A stretch of DNA of 64,000 nucleotides from a virus. Below the pieces are notes generated by a model. It made no database searches, had not been told where the DNA came from, and saw only the letters and a program-made list of their open reading frames with translations. Location of the stretch: positions 1 to 64,000 of IMG/VR virus record IMGVR_UViG_3300021185_002720; one strand, given 5' to 3'. Positions 1 through 19,370 of the stretch are shown here, in pieces; position 1 is the stretch's first letter; each line of letters begins with the position of its first letter. A program made the position numbers and the translations under genes.

Positions 1-431
1 ATGCGAATGGAAATGATACTGATATTGCTTTAGGAATACATGCAGGTGATCATGCTATTTATCCAGACTGTAGACAAGAGTTTAGAGATGCAGACGATAA
101 TGCCTTTAGATTAGGTAACTGGGAAGCTGATAAAGTAGGGTACTTTACTCCTTACTTAGATACAGACAAATTAGGAATCTTAAAAGATGGACAAAAACTC
201 ATTAAAGCATTGGAATTGGATTTTAACGAAGTATACAAAAGAACGAATACATCGTACAAACCATACCCATCAGGAAACTCTGACTACAAAAGCGCTTCAT
301 CAGTTGAACGTATTGAAGCATTCATTGATTTGGGTGTTAATGATCCCGTTCAATATGAAGACGAAACTGGACCAGTTGATTATGAAGTTGCGAAAACACA
401 TGTAGCAAAATTACTAGCGGAATATGCATAA
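1..431 (+). CDS. queC: QueC, 7-cyano-7-deazaguanine synthase (C-terminal part)
   Basis: The start lies before the window. The frame is open from base 3 to the TAA at 429-431, giving 142 visible residues. QueC uses ATP and ammonia to turn 7-carboxy-7-deazaguanine into preQ0. Seen: the family block HAGDHAIYPDCR (bases 39-74) and the C-terminal pattern ER..AF..LG..DP..Y (bases 306-350). Odd: the region where typical QueC carries four zinc cysteines (CY...CG.C..C..R) reads TSYKPYPSGNSDYKSASSVER here, so every zinc cysteine is replaced, mostly by serine. Context (FolE, QueD, QueE, QueF and a DpdA-like enzyme within 12 kb) supports a role in 7-deazaguanine DNA modification. Family assignment is strong; activity without the zinc site is uncertain. 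Confidence 0.85.
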   Translation, partial: ANGNDTDIALGIHAGDHAIYPDCRQEFRDADDNAFRLGNWEADKVGYFTPYLDTDKLGILKDGQKLIKALELDFNEVYKRTNTSYKPYPSGNSDYKSASSVERIEAFIDLGVNDPVQYEDETGPVDYEVAKTHVAKLLAEYA

Positions 432-3111: not shown

Positions 3112-4302
3112 ATGGCGAATTTTACGGACTCGAGAATAAATCAAACCTACCAACGAATTGTACAGGTAGACGGCGCAGTTATACAAGACGGTAAAGGAAA
3201 TGTACTTTCCGGATCAATGGGAGATCTTACAGTTAGTGGATCTTTAAACATTATAGGTCATACTAACGTTTCTGCATCACTTAGTAGATTAGATCACTTT
3301 AGTTCTTCCATAGACGATACATTTGCTACTGACGCCGATGTAACAGCAGTATCTTCAAGAGTAACTAATTTAGAAAACTTTTCTAGTTCGTTAGATGCTA
3401 CTTATGCTACTGACGCTCAATTAGATTTAGTTTCAAGTTCATTAGCTACAGAGACAGCACAACTTTTAAACTTTAGTGCTTCGTTAGATGCTACATTTGC
3501 AACAGATGCTCAATTAACAACAGCAGTAGAAGCTCTTAATGCATCAACTAGTTCTTTAGCACATAAAAATGCAATATCAGGAGCATTTGATATAACCTCA
3601 GCTTCTTTAGCAAACCAGATAGCTTCTTTAGATAGTGAATATGCATCAGATACACAATTAACAAGCTTATCATCTTCAGCAGCTGATACCTACTTATCTA
3701 AAGCAGGAAAAATTATTATAAGTAGTAGTGTTCAACTATTTAATGTTTGTGACCCTAGATACGGTTTTGACCCTTATGATGCTAGATATGCAAATAGCGG
3801 TTCTTACACAGCATTAAGTGGATCATTTTTACAATTAAGCGCATCACTTCAATCAGATTATGTTCTTAGTAGTTCTTTTGCTTTATTAAGTTCTTCTTTA
3901 CAAGATGACTTTTTAGGAGAAGTAGAATGGCAAATAGCATCAGCTTCATTAAGGAATGATATCTCTTATGATTCTTCTAGAGTAAGTTTATTAGAAAGTA
4001 AGAACTTAATTAGTAGTAGTACGCAAATATTTGATATAGCAGATTCTAGGTATGGGTTTATTCCTTATGATGCTAGGTATGCTAATATAAACAGTATTAC
4101 TGGATCATTTGCTTTAGAAGCTGCTAAAATAACAGCTTTACAATCAGTTGTTAGCGCTTCAGCTTTAATTAATTTAACTCCTAGTAACCCATTACCAAGT
4201 AATGTAAGTACAGGATCATTAGCTGTTACTGGAAGCACTTTAGCTTTCTATGACGGTAATAATTGGAAAGTAGTAATAACAGGATCAACTTTACCTTTAT
4301 AA
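3112..4302 (+). CDS. Repetitive fibre-like virion protein
   Basis: 396 residues, Ser/Ala/Leu/Asp-rich and repetitive. Seen: a unit of the form NFSSSLDATYATDAQL occurs three times between residues about 60 and 140, and a longer block with RYGF.PYDARYAN occurs twice (about 221-227 and 309-317), the marks of an elongated coiled-coil fibre. The C-terminal TGSTLAFYDGNNWKVV resembles short tip domains of tail-associated proteins. No signal peptide. A TATTTATA element precedes it. Likely a tail or baseplate fibre; exact role unknown. Confidence 0.65.
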   Translation: MANFTDSRINQTYQRIVQVDGAVIQDGKGNVLSGSMGDLTVSGSLNIIGHTNVSASLSRLDHFSSSIDDTFATDADVTAVSSRVTNLENFSSSLDATYATDAQLDLVSSSLATETAQLLNFSASLDATFATDAQLTTAVEALNASTSSLAHKNAISGAFDITSASLANQIASLDSEYASDTQLTSLSSSAADTYLSKAGKIIISSSVQLFNVCDPRYGFDPYDARYANSGSYTALSGSFLQLSASLQSDYVLSSSFALLSSSLQDDFLGEVEWQIASASLRNDISYDSSRVSLLESKNLISSSTQIFDIADSRYGFIPYDARYANINSITGSFALEAAKITALQSVVSASALINLTPSNPLPSNVSTGSLAVTGSTLAFYDGNNWKVVITGSTLPL

Positions 4303-4303
4303 A

Positions 4304-4335
4304 GTTGCTTCTTAAATAAATTATTCTTATATTAG
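4304..4335 (+). promoter_or_regulatory. Bacteroidetes-type promoter (class A)
   Basis: TTG at 4305-4307, 20 bases, then TATATTAG at 4328-4335. This matches the Bacteroidetes primary-sigma pattern TTG-N19-TAnnTTTG. It starts right after the fibre gene stop and is followed by an A/T-rich leader to the ATG at 4381. Confidence 0.7.
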
Positions 4336-4380
4336 ATATATATGACTATAGTGTCGTAGCACCACTTTAAAAACACGAAT

Positions 4381-4623
4381 ATGGCAAAATTAGAAAAAAA
4401 GGTTATGGAAGAACTCTATAATAGAGACGAAAGAGAGAATACCTCTTCTCTTGAGATTAATGGTCAGAAAGTACCAGATCCAAAATTACACCAAACAATT
4501 TCATTTATTAAATCAGCTATTAGACTAGGAGCATGCGCTTTTGGTTTTTTTGGTTTTTATGAGATTGGCTTTATCAGTTTATTTTTAGCTGAAATAGTTG
4601 GAATAGGGGAAGAATTAGTTTAA
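4381..4623 (+). CDS. Small membrane protein, unknown function
   Basis: 80 residues: a charged N-terminal half, then one or two hydrophobic stretches (about 48-62 AIRLGACAFGFFGFY and 63-76 with FISLFLAEIVGI). First gene after a class A promoter and nine bases upstream of queD, so probably co-transcribed with the Que genes. No family recognised. Confidence 0.6.
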   Translation: MAKLEKKVMEELYNRDERENTSSLEINGQKVPDPKLHQTISFIKSAIRLGACAFGFFGFYEIGFISLFLAEIVGIGEELV

Positions 4624-4632
4624 ATTAAAGTT

Positions 4633-5103
4633 ATGGGAAAATTTCAATCAACAAAAGTATTTGACGGTTTTAGTACCTGTTTCCGTCAATGGAAAGCAGA
4701 AACTACTCATTGTAGGTTTCTACACGGCTATGGAGTCTCTTTTAAATTATGGTTTGAAGGAGAATTAGATCATAGAAACTGGGTATGGGACTTTGGCGGT
4801 ATGAAAAGAGCTCAAGCAAAAATAGACGGTATGTCACCTAAAGCTTGGTTCGATTATATGTTTGACCATACAGTTATTATCGCTAAAGATGATCCACAAT
4901 TAGCAGGATACTTTACTAAATTAGAAAGAAACGGAACTATCCAACTTAGAGTTATAGATGCAGTTGGAGCTGAAAAGTTCGCTGAGTTTCTGTATAATAA
5001 AATTAATCCATTTTTGGAAGAAGAAACAAAAGGTAGAGTAAAATTATCTAAAGTAGAATTCAGAGAACACGGTAAAAATTCAGCAATATATGAGCCTAGG
5101 TAG
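4633..5103 (+). CDS. queD: QueD-like 6-carboxytetrahydropterin synthase
   Basis: 156 residues, family length. QueD converts dihydroneopterin triphosphate to 6-carboxy-tetrahydropterin, the second step to preQ0. Seen: THCRFLHGYG (25-34) containing the catalytic Cys27, VWDFGGMK (51-58) and the catalytic FDH (77-79). Odd: the canonical zinc motif LHGH reads LHGY, and the first zinc histidine (usual AAHR) is not obvious in CFRQWKAE, so metal binding must differ from bacterial QueD. It overlaps queE by 14 bases. The 6-pyruvoyl-tetrahydropterin synthase family is secure; the exact reaction follows from context. Confidence 0.87.
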   Translation: MGKFQSTKVFDGFSTCFRQWKAETTHCRFLHGYGVSFKLWFEGELDHRNWVWDFGGMKRAQAKIDGMSPKAWFDYMFDHTVIIAKDDPQLAGYFTKLERNGTIQLRVIDAVGAEKFAEFLYNKINPFLEEETKGRVKLSKVEFREHGKNSAIYEPR

Positions 5104-5869
5104 AATAGAAGATTACGATAAAAACTTACCAATAGTAGAAATCTATACTGCTGTTCAATCTGAAGGTTCTAGAGCAGGGTATCCTACTGTAGTTATTAGA
5201 ACTACTGGGTGTACTCATAGGTGTTACTTTGGAGAAGGAGGATGGTGTGATAGCTGGTATACTTCTATACATCCAGAAAAAGGTAAGTTTACTTTTAACG
5301 ATATTATTAAAGCATATGATGATAATCCTCATATATCAGAAATGATGTTAACTGGAGGTAGCCCGTCAATGCATAAAAAGCTTGTTAACGAATTAACACA
5401 TTTAGCAAATGAAAGGAATATTTTCATTACTATGGAAAACGAAGGAAGCCATTTCCTCCCTACTGATTATCCTATCAATTTACTTAGTATTTCTCCTAAA
5501 TTTAGCAATAGCGTTCCCGTTCTGGGTGTTGTTACTCCTGAAGGAAAAATTACAGACGAGAAAATGATAAAGCAGCATAATAAGTTTAGACTTAATTACC
5601 CTGCTATAAAAGAAAGTATTGCATACCATTCAGATTTTCATTTAAAACCTGTATGGGATGGAAAAGACGAAAAAGCATTAGCAGAAATTATGGATTGTAT
5701 CGAGCAGTTAGATGCTCCTAAAGATAAGGTATGGTTTATGCCTGCTGGTGATGATAGAGAGTCATTATTTAAATCTTATCCAGTTATGTTTGATTGGGTT
5801 AGAGATAATGGTTATAGATTAACTTGGAGACCGCATATTATTGCGTTTGAAGATCAAAGAGAAGTTTAA
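5090..5869 (+). CDS. queE: QueE, 7-carboxy-7-deazaguanine synthase (radical SAM)
   Basis: 259 residues. A radical-SAM enzyme that contracts the pterin ring to 7-carboxy-7-deazaguanine (CDG). Seen: [10 protein letters not shown] near 17-26 (QueE N-terminus), cluster cysteines C41, C45 and C53 followed by Asp54, LTGGSP (86-91) for SAM, and [10 protein letters not shown] near 130. The cluster motif is C-x3-C-x7-C rather than the short C-x3-C-x-x-C, a loop insertion also known in some QueE groups. The start overlaps queD; the stop overlaps the ferredoxin ATG (TAATG). Electron supply could come from the next gene. Confidence 0.92.
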
Positions 5870-6177
5870 TGAGTTTTATAATTGGATCACCTTGTGTTAG
5901 TACTTGCGATACAGCCTGTGTAGCAGTATGTCCTGTAGATTGTATACATGGACCTATAGACATTACAGGAGCAGGTGCAGAAGTAGCAAATATGTCTAAA
6001 GAAGAACTTGTTGGAAAAAGCTTGTATATAAACCCTGAAGAATGTATTGATTGTGGAGCTTGTGTTCCGGAATGCCCAGTAGAAGCAATATTCGATAGTG
6101 AAGAAGAAGCGATTGAAGCAGGAGAAAAAGAAGCAGTTATTAATAATTATAAATTTTTTGGATTAAATTATGAATGA
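5869..6177 (+). CDS. Two-cluster ferredoxin
   Basis: 102 residues. The C-terminal motif C59-x2-C62-x2-C65-x3-C69-P is a classic 4Fe-4S site. The N-terminal C9-x7-C17-x3-C21-P fits the first cluster of 7Fe/8Fe ferredoxins, with extra cysteines at 13 and 25. It is translationally coupled to queE (TAATG), so the simplest inference is that it delivers electrons to the radical-SAM cluster of QueE. A ferredoxin-NADP reductase at 61710 could reduce it. The acidic C-terminus suits a soluble electron carrier. Confidence 0.9.
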
Positions 6178-6802: not shown

Positions 6803-7516
6803 ATGCCTAAAAAGTTTATAGAAGGAACAGAATTAGTAAGAGCCGGATTCGCTAACGGTATTTCAACTCAACTAGCGGAAAAACAAAAGACAGAAGGACC
6901 AGAAGCTAGACTTACTGATCATGAAAAGCAAGTTATTATAGAAAGAGCAGCAGAAGCATATGCAAACTTTTTAACTGCATTAGGATGTGACTATAAAGAC
7001 GATCCTAACTCTGCAGATACTCCTTTCAGAGTAGCTAAAGCTTATGTTAATGATTTATGGGCTGGAAGATATAGCCCTTTAGACCGTATTACAGCATTTC
7101 CTTCTGATGGATATGATGGTATAGTACAAGAGAGTAACATACCAGTAACGTCTATGTGTTCGCATCACCATCAAGCTATTAGAGGTACAGTAAGTATAGC
7201 TTATATAGCATCAGAAGATGGTAAGGTAGTAGGGTTATCTAAACTAAATAGAATAGTAGAGCAATTCGGTAGAAGAGGAGCTATTCAAGAGCAGTTAACT
7301 GTTGCTATTCATAATGCAGTAGATAAGATATGCGAAGGTAATTTAGGAGTTGCTGTTCAGGTTAATGCAACTCATGCATGTGTATCATGTAGAGGTGTAA
7401 AGCATGGAGGAGCTTCTATGCAGACAGCTAAACTTACTGGAGCCTTTCTAAACGAAGATTCAGCAAAAGCAGAGTTTTACAAAAATATAGAATTAGCAGA
7501 GAAATGCAGTCATTAG
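6803..7516 (+). CDS. folE: GTP cyclohydrolase I (FolE)
   Basis: 237 residues. Opens GTP to 7,8-dihydroneopterin triphosphate, the first step of 7-deazaguanine synthesis and also of folate. Seen: zinc ligands in MCSHHH (Cys119, His122) and HACVSC (around 193), the substrate strand GLSKLNRIVEQFGRR (144-158), QEQLT (162-166) and the GGAS near the end. The first 40 residues are an unconserved extension. It has its own class A promoter, and its last codons overlap the cupin gene by 13 bases. It supplies QueD. Confidence 0.93.
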   Translation: MPKKFIEGTELVRAGFANGISTQLAEKQKTEGPEARLTDHEKQVIIERAAEAYANFLTALGCDYKDDPNSADTPFRVAKAYVNDLWAGRYSPLDRITAFPSDGYDGIVQESNIPVTSMCSHHHQAIRGTVSIAYIASEDGKVVGLSKLNRIVEQFGRRGAIQEQLTVAIHNAVDKICEGNLGVAVQVNATHACVSCRGVKHGGASMQTAKLTGAFLNEDSAKAEFYKNIELAEKCSH

Positions 7517-8506: not shown

Positions 8507-8714
8507 TTTAGAAAAACATAAAGTTACTATTGACGGCGAGGACTACTTACCGTATAATATAGTTAAAAAAGCATATTCTGAAATTTATGAATATGATAAG
8601 AATCAAAAGAAACTTGATCATGCATTAGAACTTATTGATAACTCAGTAAGAACTATGTCAACACTTTTAAATACTACAAATATAGATGATAAAGATAGCA
8701 CACGAGAGCCCTAA
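8499..8714 (+). CDS. Small acidic protein, unknown
   Basis: 71 residues, overlapping the stop of the MazG-like gene by 8 bases and the DpdA start by 29. It begins INLEKHKVTIDGEDYLPY and continues as an amphipathic helix (about 28-58). No family recognised. A small partner of a neighbouring enzyme is possible but not shown. Confidence 0.6.
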   Translation: MINLEKHKVTIDGEDYLPYNIVKKAYSEIYEYDKNQKKLDHALELIDNSVRTMSTLLNTTNIDDKDSTREP

Positions 8715-9489
8715 AGGTATTTTTGAAGAAGTACAAAGATTTACAGATTACGATTATGCATTAGTACACTTGTTTGAAGAAGATGAAGAATACTTACGTC
8801 AATTTAAACAAGCAGCGCTAAAAGGTAGAGAAATAATTTTAGATAACTCTATTTTTGAATTAGAAGAGGCTTTCGATGCAGATAAATTTAACAAGTGGGT
8901 TAACGAACTTAAACCTACATGGTATATAGTTCCTGATGCTTTGGAAGATGCTACTAAAACTTGCGATCAAATGGAAGACTGGAATAATAAAGGTCTTGGT
9001 TATAAAGGTAGTGGTAAGATAGGAGTAGTTCAAGGTAAAACTTATGATGAAATAGTAGATTGTTATAACTATATGAATAAATCAGCAGATGTAGACATGA
9101 TTGCTATCTCTTTTGATTATTCGTATTATACACATTCTGTTCCTCATGCTAACAAGTATGTTAGCTGGATGCTAGGACGTGTTAAGCTACTAGGAGACTT
9201 ACTTAGAGACGGTGTAATAAATACTACAAAGCCTCATCACTTACTAGGTTGTAGTTTACCTCAAGAATTTAGTTTCTATAAGCATTCCGATTACGATTGG
9301 ATATATTCACTTGATACTTCAAATCCTGTTGTACACGGTATTAAAGGTATAACATATAGTTCAGATGGACTATGGTCTAAAGAAAGACAGAAGTTACATG
9401 AATTAATAAATTCAGATATTGACGAGCATCAGTTAGGAACTATTAGAAATAATATTCAAAAATTTAAATGGTACACAAATGGGAACTAA
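8686..9489 (+). CDS. dpdA: DpdA-like 7-deazaguanine DNA transglycosylase
   Basis: 267 residues resembling the TGT-like fold of phage DpdA, which swaps a guanine in DNA for a 7-deazaguanine base. Seen: ILDNSIFE (51-58) where TGT has its first catalytic aspartate, PDALED (83-88), GVVQGKT (113-119), AISFDYSY (140-147), LLGCSLPQEF (186-195) and SLDTSNP (208-214), matching the substrate and second aspartate regions. No CxCxxC zinc motif is present, unlike tRNA TGT. Its neighbours are a DpdN-like formyltransferase (11-base overlap), QueF and other Que genes, a context specific for DNA modification. The DpdA subfamily cannot be fixed by eye. Confidence 0.82.
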   Translation: MIKIAHESPKGIFEEVQRFTDYDYALVHLFEEDEEYLRQFKQAALKGREIILDNSIFELEEAFDADKFNKWVNELKPTWYIVPDALEDATKTCDQMEDWNNKGLGYKGSGKIGVVQGKTYDEIVDCYNYMNKSADVDMIAISFDYSYYTHSVPHANKYVSWMLGRVKLLGDLLRDGVINTTKPHHLLGCSLPQEFSFYKHSDYDWIYSLDTSNPVVHGIKGITYSSDGLWSKERQKLHELINSDIDEHQLGTIRNNIQKFKWYTNGN

Positions 9490-10015
9490 AGTATGGATAG
9501 CATTTTTTAGTCAGACAGGTGCTGAAATAGCTGATATAGCAGAATCACTAGGTAGATGGCCAGATAGGATAATTACTAATGATAGACCTGAACATCTTAG
9601 AACTATTGATGAAAGAATAGAAAAGAAAGGTTACTTCACTATGAGTAATAAACCCTCGTTAGATGAATATGAAGATACCTTAGTATACTTTCCAGAAGCA
9701 TTGGTCACTTTACATGGATGGCTTAGAATAATGCCTCCTGAGATTTGTGAAAGATTTAATATAATTAATGGTCACCCAGGCCTTATAACCGAGTATCCAG
9801 AGCTTAAAGGTAAAGATCCTCAAATAAGAGCTTTTGAAGGAAAGTACCCAGTTGTTGGCACAGTATTACATAGAGTAGTAGCAGGTGTAGATGAAGGAAA
9901 AGTAATTTCTGAAGAGAGATTTAATAATTTTAATTTGGAGCTTAATGATTTATTTCGTATCTTAAGAGATAGAGGGTTATATATGTGGTGTAACTTCCTA
10001 AAAACGGTTTTATGA
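9479..10015 (+). CDS. dpdN: DpdN-like formyltransferase
   Basis: 178 residues of the PurN/Fmt formyltransferase fold. Seen: the catalytic triad region N97-G-H99 in INGHPGL, LKGKDPQIRAFEG (109-121), and GTVLHRVVAGVDEG (127-140) with Asp138, matching the Asn-His-Asp triad that uses 10-formyl-tetrahydrofolate. It begins inside the end of dpdA. DpdN is the formyltransferase predicted to act on dPreQ1 in phages with fdPreQ1 DNA, so with QueF nearby the likely product is formylaminomethyl-7-deazaguanine. An unrelated formyl acceptor (sugar amine) is the main alternative, given the phage's glycan genes. Confidence 0.77.
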   Translation: MGTKVWIAFFSQTGAEIADIAESLGRWPDRIITNDRPEHLRTIDERIEKKGYFTMSNKPSLDEYEDTLVYFPEALVTLHGWLRIMPPEICERFNIINGHPGLITEYPELKGKDPQIRAFEGKYPVVGTVLHRVVAGVDEGKVISEERFNNFNLELNDLFRILRDRGLYMWCNFLKTVL

Positions 10016-10533: not shown

Positions 10534-10897
10534 ATACGGAGCAAAATTATTAAGAGTAGTTGATGGTGACACAGCAGATGTTATGATCGACTTAGGATTC
10601 AGTACTTGGGTTAAAGCAAGGCTTAGATTCAAAGGTGTAGATACCTGGGAAAAGAGAACTAGAAATTTAGAAGAAAAAGCTAAAGGTATATTAGCTTCTG
10701 AATTTACAAAAAAACACTTAGAGCTAAATGATGGTAAGTTTATCATTCAGTCCTACGGTAAAGGTAAGTATGGAAGAGTACTTGCAGAGATTTTTATTGA
10801 TCTCGATGGAGAAGAAACCTCTTTAAATAAACTATTAGTAGAAAACGGTCACGCTTATGTTTACGAAGGTGGCAAAAAACAATTATTTAAAGGATAA
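10526..10897 (+). CDS. Staphylococcal-nuclease-like (thermonuclease) protein
   Basis: 123 residues, a compact SNase domain with no signal peptide. Seen: VVDGDTADV (11-19), ARLRFKGVDTWEK (31-43) carrying the catalytic Arg34 and Glu42 equivalents, and GKYGRVLAE (80-88) with Arg84. Calcium-dependent cleavage of DNA or RNA is the family activity. Without a leader it would act in the cytoplasm, possibly on host DNA lacking the 7-deazaguanine mark. It overlaps the upstream kinase by 8 bases and is followed four bases later by queF. Confidence 0.88.
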   Translation: MFRYGAKLLRVVDGDTADVMIDLGFSTWVKARLRFKGVDTWEKRTRNLEEKAKGILASEFTKKHLELNDGKFIIQSYGKGKYGRVLAEIFIDLDGEETSLNKLLVENGHAYVYEGGKKQLFKG

Positions 10898-10901
10898 AAA
10901 T

Positions 10902-11813
10902 ATGGCAGAAGTTAAAAATTATCAAGAAGTAGTAGACATTGCGTCTAAACACTTAGGAAAAGTAGGCGGTGATGGGTATAAAGATACCTACGCACCAGAG
11001 TTATTAGTTAAAGTACCTCGTTATTTGAATAGAGAAGGATACGGATTAACTGATAAAGATTTTGTAGGAGTAGATACTTGGAACTGTTACGAAGTATCAG
11101 CTATTACTAAAAAAGGATTACCTGTAGCAGGTATGTTAAAAATTGTATGTCCTTCAGATTCTGAATATCACGTAGAATCTAAGTCTATTAAGTTGTACCT
11201 AAATTCTTTTAATATGACTAGATTAGGAGAAACTTCTGTAGATTGTATTTTAGAGATTGAAGAAAGAGTAAAAACTGATTTAGATAAGTTACTTGAAACT
11301 AATACTACTGTAAGCTTTTACACTGATTTAGACGACGGTAAAGAATTATCTTTTGAAGGATATGAAGATTTAGGAGATATAGTAGATTTAGATCAAATAG
11401 ATTTTACAGCTTTTCAGTCTGATGCTTCTCAATTACTTATAGAAGATACCTCAGAAACCCCTAAAGAAGTAAAATTAAGATCTAACTTATTAAGATCTAA
11501 CTGTAGAGTAACTAATCAACCAGATTGGGGTGATGTATTTATTAGAATGAACGGTAAAAATTTACCTGCAGTAGATTCGGTAGCAAAATATATCGTATCT
11601 CATAGAACCGTTAGTCACTTTCATGAAGAGATTTGCGAAATGGTATTTAAGCATTTAATGGATGCATATCAACCTGATGATTTAATGGTATCATGCTTAT
11701 ATACTAGAAGAGGAGGATTAGATATAAATCCTATTAGAGCAACTCACTCAAGGTTCATTCCTGACTTCTTTACTGATACAGATTATAGAATTCAAAAAAC
11801 ATTAAGACAGTAA
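10902..11813 (+). CDS. queF: QueF, NADPH-dependent preQ0 reductase (bimodular type)
   Basis: 303 residues from the ATG at 10902; an ATG 45 bases upstream would run back into the nuclease gene and adds no conserved residues. QueF reduces the nitrile of preQ0 to the aminomethyl group of preQ1 using NADPH. Seen: ESKSIKLYLNSFN (92-104), catalytic Cys201 and Asp208 in SNCRVTNQPDWG, HFHEE (239-243), and TRRGGLDINPIRA (268-280). Size and motif spacing match the long E. coli-type enzyme rather than the short Bacillus type. Its presence indicates that the phage makes preQ1, the expected substrate for formylation by the DpdN-like enzyme. The next gene overlaps by one base. Confidence 0.95.
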   Translation: MAEVKNYQEVVDIASKHLGKVGGDGYKDTYAPELLVKVPRYLNREGYGLTDKDFVGVDTWNCYEVSAITKKGLPVAGMLKIVCPSDSEYHVESKSIKLYLNSFNMTRLGETSVDCILEIEERVKTDLDKLLETNTTVSFYTDLDDGKELSFEGYEDLGDIVDLDQIDFTAFQSDASQLLIEDTSETPKEVKLRSNLLRSNCRVTNQPDWGDVFIRMNGKNLPAVDSVAKYIVSHRTVSHFHEEICEMVFKHLMDAYQPDDLMVSCLYTRRGGLDINPIRATHSRFIPDFFTDTDYRIQKTLRQ

Positions 11814-16965: not shown

Positions 16966-18621
16966 ATGAGTAAAGATTTAGAATTTAATCACAAAGCTAG
17001 AGTAGGACTTTCAGAAGGTATCGAAAAATTAGCAAAGACTGTTGTATGTACTTTAGGTCCAGCAGGTAGGAATGTAATTATTGAACAAACAACAGGTAAT
17101 CCAATTTCTACTAAAGACGGAGTTACAGTTGCAAAGTCTATTGAATTAAAAGATCCATTAGAGAATATTGGAGCACAATTAGTTAAACAAGCATCTATTA
17201 AGACTGCAGAAGAAGCTGGTGATGGTACTACTACCTCTACACTACTAGCTAGAGAGATGTTTCAAAAAGGTTTAGGAACTATTGGAGATCATACTGCAGT
17301 ACAAGTTAAGAAAGGAATAGAACTCGCTACAGAAGACGTAGTTGAGTATTTAGAATCAGTAAGTAAAGATATAACGGACGAAGGACAGCTTAAACAGGTC
17401 GCTACTATCTCTGCCAATAACGATAATGAAGTTGGCGAATTGATTTCTACTGCTATGGAAAAAGTAGGACAGGATGGAGTTGTGTCAATCGAAGAATCAA
17501 AGACCGGAGAAACGTATTTAGAAACAGTTGAAGGAATGCAATTCAACAGAGGTTATAAGTCTCCATACTTCGTTACAGATAACAGCACCATGACTGCTGT
17601 TCTTCGTGATCCGTTTGTATTAATTACTGATAAAAGGTTGAACCAGGTGAAGGAGTTACTTCCTGTATTAGAAGCTGTTTCTCAACAAAATAAGTCTCTG
17701 TTAGTAATTGCAGACGATATCGATGGAGAAGCATTATCTACTATGGTAGTTAATAAGATGAGAGGTATTCTTCCTGTAGCTGCAGTTAAGGCTCCTGATT
17801 TTGGAGACAGAAAGAAAGCAACGTTAGAAGATATAGCAATCATAACAGGAGGTCAAGTAATCTCATCAGATAAAGGAATGAGATTGGATAAGTTTGATCC
17901 TGCTTGGTTAGGTAAAGCTGTTAAAGCTACTGTTTCAAAAGATACCTGTACTATTATTGATGCTAAAGGAGATGAAGAAAAGATTCAAGCTAGAGTAGAT
18001 GAGATCAGAACTCAGATAGACGAATCTAATTCACCTTTTGAGAAAGAAAATCTTCAAGACCGATTAGGTAAATTGATCGGCGGAGTTGCAGTGGTACACG
18101 TTGGTGGTCATACTGAAATAGAAATGAAAGAGAAGAAAGATAGAGTAGATGATGCTCTACATGCCACCAAGGCAGCTCTAGAAGAAGGTGTTTTACCTGG
18201 AGGAGGAGTAGCATTACTTAATGCTGCTAAAAAGATTAGAGATAAGAAAGATAAAGGTAGCTACAAAGATCTTACTGCTAGTGAGCAAGTAGGAATACAG
18301 ATACTTTTAGAATCAATAGAAAGACCATTCTATCAGATTCTTTTTAACGCTGGAATTGCTGAACCAGAAATCGATGAAATAAGAAAAGCGATTGAAAAGA
18401 AAACTAAAGATAAATGGTATGGTTATAACTCAAGAGTTGAAGACTTTGCTGATATGTTTAAAGAAGGTATTATCGATCCAACTAAAGTTACTAGGTTAGC
18501 ATTAGAGAATGCCGTATCAGTAGCTGGAACGATGTTAATCACTGAAGCAGTAGTATCGTTAGATAAAACTGAAGAAACAAAAGCACCATTAGACGCAGCT
18601 CAACAAATGTTACTAGGATAA
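16966..18621 (+). CDS. groEL: GroEL chaperonin
   Basis: 551 residues, full length. Seen: [15 protein letters not shown] (26-40), [11 protein letters not shown] (49-59), the ATPase motif [12 protein letters not shown] (84-95), EGMQFNRGY, and [10 protein letters not shown] near residue 408. The C-terminus ends AAQQMLLG, without the GGM repeats of bacterial GroEL. It forms ATP-driven rings with GroES. A complete GroES-GroEL pair in a phage is uncommon and suggests a folding client that the host chaperonin handles poorly. The stop overlaps nadE (TAATG). Confidence 0.96.
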
Positions 18622-19370
18622 TGAAATATAAATTTATTACAGATTGGTTACGTAATTACAGTAAGGAAGCAAACGAAAAGACTTTTGTTGTTGGAGTAAG
18701 CGGCGGGATTGACTCCGCCGTTACCTCTACCTTATGTGCTCAAACAGGAGTACAGACATATGTAGTTTCACTTCCAATTGAGCAGAATAAAGAAGAACTT
18801 AGCAGAGCTGAAGCTCATATTGAGTGGCTCTGTAATAAGTACGATAACGTAGTTCCTTTACAGTTTAATTTAAATGAATTATTCTGGGCATTTAAAAATG
18901 TATTTGAAAAAGAAGATAAGTTAGCATTAGCTAATTCAAGATCTAGACTTAGGATGACTACATTGTATCATGCTGCTGCTATGGTTAATGGATTAGTAGT
19001 TGGTACAGGTAATAAGGTTGAAGACTTTGGAATAGGTTTCTATACAAAATATGGAGACGGAGGAGTTGATATTAGCCCAATAGCTGACCTAATGAAATCA
19101 GAAGTAAAAGAAGCAGCATGTGAATTAGGACTTCTTTTAGATATCATAGAAGCAAAACCTACAGATGGTCTATGGGACGACGGAAGAACAGATGAAGATC
19201 AAATCGGATGTACTTACGATGAATTAGAATGGGCAATGACTTTTGGAGGAGATAAAAGAAAGTTAACTAAAAGAAAAAAAGAAGTATTAAAAATATTCTA
19301 CGGTTTCCAACATAACAATAGGCATAAAATGGTTCCAATACCTATATGTCCAAATACTAAAGATGCATAA
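18621..19370 (+). CDS. nadE: NAD synthetase (ammonia-dependent)
   Basis: 249 residues. NadE amidates nicotinic acid adenine dinucleotide to NAD using ATP and ammonia. Seen: the PP-loop VSGGIDSA (26-33), RSRLRMTTLYHAA (about 112-124), GTGNKVEDFGIGFYTKYGDGG (about 132-152) and the C-terminal PTDGLWDDGRTDE. There is no glutaminase domain, so free ammonia is used. Coupled to groEL by TAATG. Phage NadE would raise NAD during infection and might offset defences that deplete NAD. Confidence 0.93.
   Translation: MKYKFITDWLRNYSKEANEKTFVVGVSGGIDSAVTSTLCAQTGVQTYVVSLPIEQNKEELSRAEAHIEWLCNKYDNVVPLQFNLNELFWAFKNVFEKEDKLALANSRSRLRMTTLYHAAAMVNGLVVGTGNKVEDFGIGFYTKYGDGGVDISPIADLMKSEVKEAACELGLLLDIIEAKPTDGLWDDGRTDEDQIGCTYDELEWAMTFGGDKRKLTKRKKEVLKIFYGFQHNNRHKMVPIPICPNTKDA

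Follow-up and report, generated by a model that had tools for sequence, protein, structure and literature searches.

QueC makes the precursor of a protective DNA base, and both databases and the 2026 survey of its family define the enzyme by a zinc motif. In that survey, the motif is the hallmark of QueC, zinc is absent only in the LarE and GMP synthase clusters, and E. coli QueC alanine mutants of Y35, R99, Y131, and Y189 are inactive; zinc is also stated to be required for QueC function, which counts against a working QueC that is free of zinc (PMC13329287). A zinc-less QueC of the preQ0 type is not mentioned in the survey, and no report of one was found in the literature that we searched.

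We analyzed a queC gene of this zinc-less kind in the window, by which we mean the whole stretch of 64,000 nucleotides of viral DNA, whose first base is the first base of a 72,148-base viral record (G000). The gene and the residues that align with the zinc loop of E. coli QueC are as follows.

3..431, + strand: queC, C-terminal 142 amino acids, the 5' part cut by the contig start (PF06508, E 1.8e-9; phrog_1550, QueC-like)
246..308, + strand: former zinc segment NTSYKPYPSGNSDYKSASSVE, residues 82-102 of the fragment (from alignments)
252..254, + strand: S84 of the fragment, aligned with E. coli QueC C188
255..257, + strand: Y85 of the fragment, aligned with E. coli QueC Y189 and kept
282..284, + strand: D94 of the fragment, aligned with E. 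coli QueC C197
291..293, + strand: S97 of the fragment, aligned with E. coli QueC C200
300..302, + strand: S100 of the fragment, aligned with E. coli QueC C203

The window queC is read in frame +3 and is open at its 5' end, which is the contig edge, and the start of the gene lies off the contig. Its PF06508 match covers profile positions 114-207 with a score of 37.9 bits, and the QueC of a relative, L003, scored 134.7 bits with the same profile (curated cut-off, 22). An earlier note on this DNA had claimed that the segment corresponding to the QueC zinc motif has no cysteine and that the flanking ER..AF..LG..DP..Y is kept. Both claims were borne out: the four sites are Ser, Asp, Ser, and Ser, the C(x)8CxxCxxC motif by which canonical QueC is recognized (cluster 1 of PMC13329287) is absent, and alignment with E. 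coli QueC showed that VER..AF..LG..DP..Y and Arg206 are retained. The fragment itself contains YPDC (at about window positions 60-71), DTDK (Lys165), and TSY (Tyr189), and C23 of YPDC is its sole cysteine. Because it fails only the zinc motif among the canonical QueC features tested, we call it a zinc-less variant of QueC that presumably works like QueC. Identity as a LarE, GMP synthase, or NAD synthase PP-loop protein was considered and rejected, as the QueC motifs are present and PF02540, PF01171, and PF03054 were below their cut-offs.

A profile scan of IMG/VR gave at least 592 confirmed stretches. A set of 135 distinct marine viral sequences was drawn from two viral scans and from the phage contigs of MAG bins, and among the matches listed, all 135 had S-D-S-S at the four zinc positions and Tyr at position 189. 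The gap from Tyr189 to position 197 varied in the viral relatives from short to more than 25 residues, and the SDYK(S)xSSVER block was constant. For the control set of Sonali-like phage QueC, the zinc cysteines were present in 67 to 68 of the 68 distinct sequences, varying by position. The window queC is under purifying selection (dN/dS of 0.04 to 0.14 against 14 relatives), and these low values together with the 135 matching sequences rule out a sequencing error or a pseudogene. Because the window gene is truncated, its N-terminal motifs were deduced from relatives that are 96 to 98% identical. Among these, L003 is 98% identical over the shared part and has YGQKHRVE and VPNRN, both of which are off-contig in the window. 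Full-length relatives keep the catalytic motifs SGGxDS (SGGMDS), YGQxHxxE (YGQKHRVE), VPNRN, YPDC, K165, and Y189; the SGGxDS ATP loop, also off-contig in the window, is invariant in them. A 59-sequence alignment that included four-cysteine QueC had 16 invariant columns. Only one near relative has been cultured, Flavobacterium phage immuto, whose QueC is 66 to 69% identical.

The earlier note had proposed structure prediction as a check, and this gave a confident QueC-like fold for L003 that includes the former zinc loop. The AlphaFold2 model, made with the 59-sequence alignment, had a mean pLDDT of 93.2 and a pTM of 0.91, and the former zinc loop had pLDDT values of 92 to 97 in a model that cannot show whether a metal is bound. 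The closest solved structures were QueC 2pg3 and 3bl5, followed by Cap9, and these ranked above LarE. The TM-scores to the solved structures were moderate (0.58 to 0.78), partly because the solved chains are shorter.

The window queC is accompanied by other genes of the preQ0 pathway, listed below.

4633..5103, + strand: queD (PF01242, E 1.1e-13; alignment)
5090..5869, + strand: queE, radical SAM 7-carboxy-7-deazaguanine synthase (PF04055, E 1e-4, under the cut-off; placed relative to QueD and FolE as in immuto, where it is annotated QueE)
6803..7516, + strand: folE, GTP cyclohydrolase I (PF01227, E 9e-42; CxHH and HxC zinc ligands kept)
8686..9489, + strand: DpdA-like DNA guanine transglycosylase (75% identical to immuto gp206, annotated DpdA)
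9479..10015, + strand: formyltransferase-like gene (PF00551, E 1.6e-7; phrog_9240)
10857..11813, + strand: queF, bimodular preQ0 nitrile reductase (PF14819 and PF14489; SNCxVTxQPDW and ESKSIKLY)

The same set of pathway genes, in the same order, is carried by immuto. A PF01702 search of the viral record for a TGT-type DpdA gave no match, and the DpdA-like gene was found through its similarity to immuto instead. A DpdA-like homologue was present in 22 of the 23 viral records with zinc-less QueC, and QueF was above the cut-off in 11 of the 23. The 11 to 12 records with no QueF above it count against a working QueC, and all of the records may be fragments. The window QueF reads SNCRVTNQPDW and ESKSIKLY, which we take to be the catalytic and substrate motifs known for preQ0 nitrile reductases. 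Since QueF acts on the nitrile preQ0, which is the QueC product, its presence in the cluster is the strongest local argument that the window QueC still makes preQ0. The neighboring genes scanned were preQ0 pathway genes and phage genes, and no QatA/B/D or CD-NTase gene was among them. A formylated preQ1, fPreQ1, was reportedly described in 2023 (Cui), and with a formyltransferase-like gene in the company of queF and the gene for the DpdA-like enzyme, formylated preQ1 could be the final DNA base. The interval between queC and queD also holds a tRNA-Ala (577-651), an uncharacterized protein (664-1317) whose start resembles a sulfotransferase, and a carbamoyltransferase of the NodU/TobZ type (1314-2972). 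A small 4Fe-4S ferredoxin (5869-6177) immediately follows the radical SAM QueE and is possibly its electron donor, and elsewhere in the window a phage GroEL (16966-18621) is followed by NAD synthetase (18621-19370).

Cellular genomes, one per species, were surveyed with the same profile as in the viral scan. The matches were mostly from Marine Group II euryarchaea, at 40 to 48% identity, plus three marine planctomycetes. The four zinc cysteines are absent from the QueC of both groups, where the positions are occupied by S/T, a variable residue (S, H, D, or others), S/T, and D; phages have Asp at position 197, the planctomycetes and part of the archaea have His there, and position 203 is Asp in archaeal zinc-less QueC. 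Eleven further Thermoplasmatota QueC, which had low scores in a survey of the phylum, were also without the cysteines. Of nine from the high-scoring band, eight had them, and the motif of the ninth carries an insertion. As controls, the zinc cysteines were found in 30 of 30 other Planctomycetota and 31 of 31 other Thermoplasmatota QueC. Each Marine Group II genome examined gave one full-length QueC match, and no other full-length QueC was found in the cellular genomes with zinc-less QueC that were searched. An archaeosine-type TGT was above the cut-off in 19 of the 22 Marine Group II genomes, and in the Marine Group II locus read (L115), the genes for FolE, QueE, QueC, and QueD lie side by side in that order, as an operon. 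Given a sole QueC, the archaeosine TGT, and this locus, the simplest reading is that the zinc-less QueC would supply preQ0 for archaeosine in Marine Group II. Many Marine Group II loci (L120, 3998-5146; L101; L103; and others) encode the zinc-less QueC as an in-frame fusion, with methionine sulfoxide reductase B (SelR) as its C-terminal domain.

A QueC tree was built without the zinc columns. All of the marine zinc-less QueC, together with one four-cysteine sequence (L167), formed a clade (SH-aLRT 98) that was nested among phage four-cysteine QueC. In the free tree, L167, which is from a Pseudomonadota MAG (3938-4726) and keeps its four cysteines, falls inside the marine zinc-less clade beside L366. 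L366 is the nearest sequence to it (62% identical) and has the phage S-D-S-S motif; the two may represent an evolutionary intermediate or a recombinant. A single zinc-less clade among the marine sequences was not rejected (p-AU 0.274), so one loss within the marine clade is possible. The QueC of Marine Group II (L115, 2814-5214) and marine Pirellulaceae grouped in the tree with phage QueC and not with other Thermoplasmatota or Planctomycetota QueC, and gene transfer between viruses and cells is suggested for QueC. Zinc cysteines are also absent, with other substitutes (for example, SHTSYDGEYPPTKNNHSNLLR), from the QueC of Pseudomonas phage Iggy, Rhizobium phage N17, Acinetobacter phage HD01, and Stenotrophomonas phage ply2008005c. 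Among QueC of the E. coli type, the Iggy-type sequences formed their own clade (100/99), and descent of every zinc-less QueC from one loss was rejected (p-AU 0.00014). The zinc cysteines were thus lost on at least two occasions, and in both lineages Tyr189 was retained. The earlier note had written of "the phage enzyme," which is too narrow a frame for a clade of phages, Marine Group II, and some planctomycetes plus an independent Iggy-like loss. The presence of dPreQ0 in Iggy DNA has been reported (Olsen et al. 2023, cited by PMC11945000 and PMC11008142), which speaks for a working zinc-less QueC. The hosts of Iggy and probably of the flavophages have their own QueC, so dPreQ0 in DNA is no proof of phage QueC activity.

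The QueD of these phages also differs at its zinc site. Two of its three zinc histidines are missing, H16 being replaced by F and H33 by Y (CxxxHGY; HxH reads HGY) in 82 of 82 sequences, comprising the window phage, 80 viral relatives (L446-L525), and immuto, and the catalytic Cys, Asp/His, and Glu are kept in all 82. HGY QueD is also found in phiSM, phiST, BcepGomr, Iggy, N17, and HD01. Of 399 Pseudomonadota genomes, 5 have it, including one that is phage-like. A strict coupling of the QueC and QueD losses was rejected, as phiSM and BcepGomr pair a four-cysteine QueC with HGY QueD and ply2008005c and Marine Group II pair a zinc-less QueC with normal QueD. Because zinc is catalytic in known QueD, the change in QueD may be more surprising than that in QueC, and if HGY QueD is active, it must work by a chemistry other than the textbook zinc mechanism. 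We tentatively suggest, at somewhat less than even chance, that zinc has dropped out of the preQ0 pathway on more than one occasion: QueC would have become zinc-free at least twice, tRNA archaeosine in Marine Group II would depend on a zinc-free QueC, and many phages would pair zinc-less QueC with HGY QueD, which would leave a pathway with almost no zinc, fit for surface water that is poor in zinc or oxidizes thiols.

We consider it quite probable that the window gene encodes a working QueC, converting CDG to preQ0 with ATP and ammonia, that has given up zinc binding at the usual site, with direct packing in place of the zinc staple. In ordinary QueC, zinc would staple the Tyr189-bearing loop to the following helix, and the position of Tyr189, rather than zinc, would be the essential part. 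In zinc-less QueC, Ser/Thr/Asp side chains (Ser/Asp/Ser/Ser in the window) and nonmetal packing would hold the loop, with Tyr189 and the active site unchanged. The preQ0 made in the window phage would probably pass to QueF (giving preQ1), perhaps through formylation, and into DNA via the DpdA-like enzyme. Zinc, long treated as part of QueC, appears to be dispensable.

The earlier note had left two options for the phage enzyme, a fold that does without zinc or a new role. The former is supported by the L003 model, by conservation, and by the intact pathway. With a changed role, the enzyme would stop at the amide (ADG) or the adenylate, or would act like Cap9 and QatC and join CDG to a protein or another acceptor, and zinc would have disappeared along with the nitrile-forming step. 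A conserved site that is lost is often the sign of a new function, PF06508 has taken on other roles several times (PMC13329287), and dADG has been found in phage DNA (PMC6884629). However, Cap9 and QatC retain their zinc cysteines, so zinc loss is not their hallmark; the QueF of the same cluster uses the nitrile; the substrate-pocket motifs are unchanged; and Marine Group II have only the zinc-less QueC, beside an archaeosine TGT and other preQ0 genes. Given these archaea and the neighboring QueF, DpdA-like, FolE, QueD, and QueE genes, a changed role is unlikely.

It is at least as improbable that a metal is still bound, whether by Ser/Asp/His substitutes, a site rebuilt elsewhere, or a three-cysteine loop. 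Asp or His at position 197 and the archaeal Asp at position 203 speak for binding, as does a local CX4-5CX3C loop in the N-terminal half of QueC in seven near relatives (L002, L003, L004, L006, L007, L015, and L017), which in L003 spans residues 57-68. Ser/Thr at two to three of the four positions nevertheless makes a poor zinc site, and the cysteine loop is lineage-specific, missing from the other relatives, and less confidently modeled (pLDDT of 68 to 82 in L003). Cysteines elsewhere that rebuild the zinc site were the refuting case named in the earlier note; the N-terminal half of the window protein is off-contig, and in full-length relatives no cysteine is conserved except that of YPDC, so a rebuilt site was rejected. 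We give very little credence to a phage queC that is decaying or dispensable, with host preQ0 used in its place. Iggy-like and Bacteroidota phages infect hosts that as a rule produce preQ0, which would fit this explanation. So would the ability of DpdA alone to use host preQ0 (PMC6884629). Such a gene would not be expected to be under purifying selection, to have its new motif exact in 135 sequences, or to be retained across archaea, planctomycetes, and phages, with no second full-length QueC in the cellular genomes searched.

If the window gene does encode a working, zinc-free QueC, then two independent losses with the catalytic residues kept would make zinc a replaceable staple and would narrow the catalytic core (Tyr189 without zinc), the cysteine motif would be unsafe for deciding whether a QueC makes preQ0, and abundant marine archaea would make archaeosine through a zinc-free enzyme. 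The zinc-less proteins would also be natural variants for separating structure from catalysis.

Canonical QueC (PF06508 cluster 1: E. coli; B. subtilis 3BL5; Pectobacterium 2PG3) and the window type share the fold, the ATP loop, YxQxHxxE, VPxRN, YPDC, Lys165, and Tyr189, and both are linked to queD, queE, and folE. Compared to canonical QueC, the zinc-less type has the four cysteines replaced, is about 40 residues longer, and has extra sequence upstream of VPEGHY, within the GNW region, and in front of the former zinc loop. The nearest cysteine-bearing relatives in the tree, the Sonali/CRB2-type actinophage QueC, have VPxGHY, VVPNRN, and HAGDHAVYPDCR in common with the window type and also lie in phage preQ0 clusters, but they still have the C4 zinc and carry no insertion in front of the zinc loop. 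Iggy-type QueC likewise has no zinc cysteine, keeps Tyr189 (TSY/TAY), and lies in preQ0 clusters, yet its origin is separate and its substitutes are different. Like the window type, Cap9 (type IV CBASS) and QatC are QueC-fold ATP enzymes acting on CDG, but they keep the zinc cysteines and sit in defense operons, whereas the window QueC sits in a preQ0 cluster. In cysteine-plus/cysteine-minus ribosomal protein pairs of the bL31A/bL31B type, a structural zinc ribbon is replaced by metal-free packing and function is kept. The principle is the same as that for zinc-less QueC, but those are structural proteins, whereas QueC is an enzyme for which zinc has been considered required.
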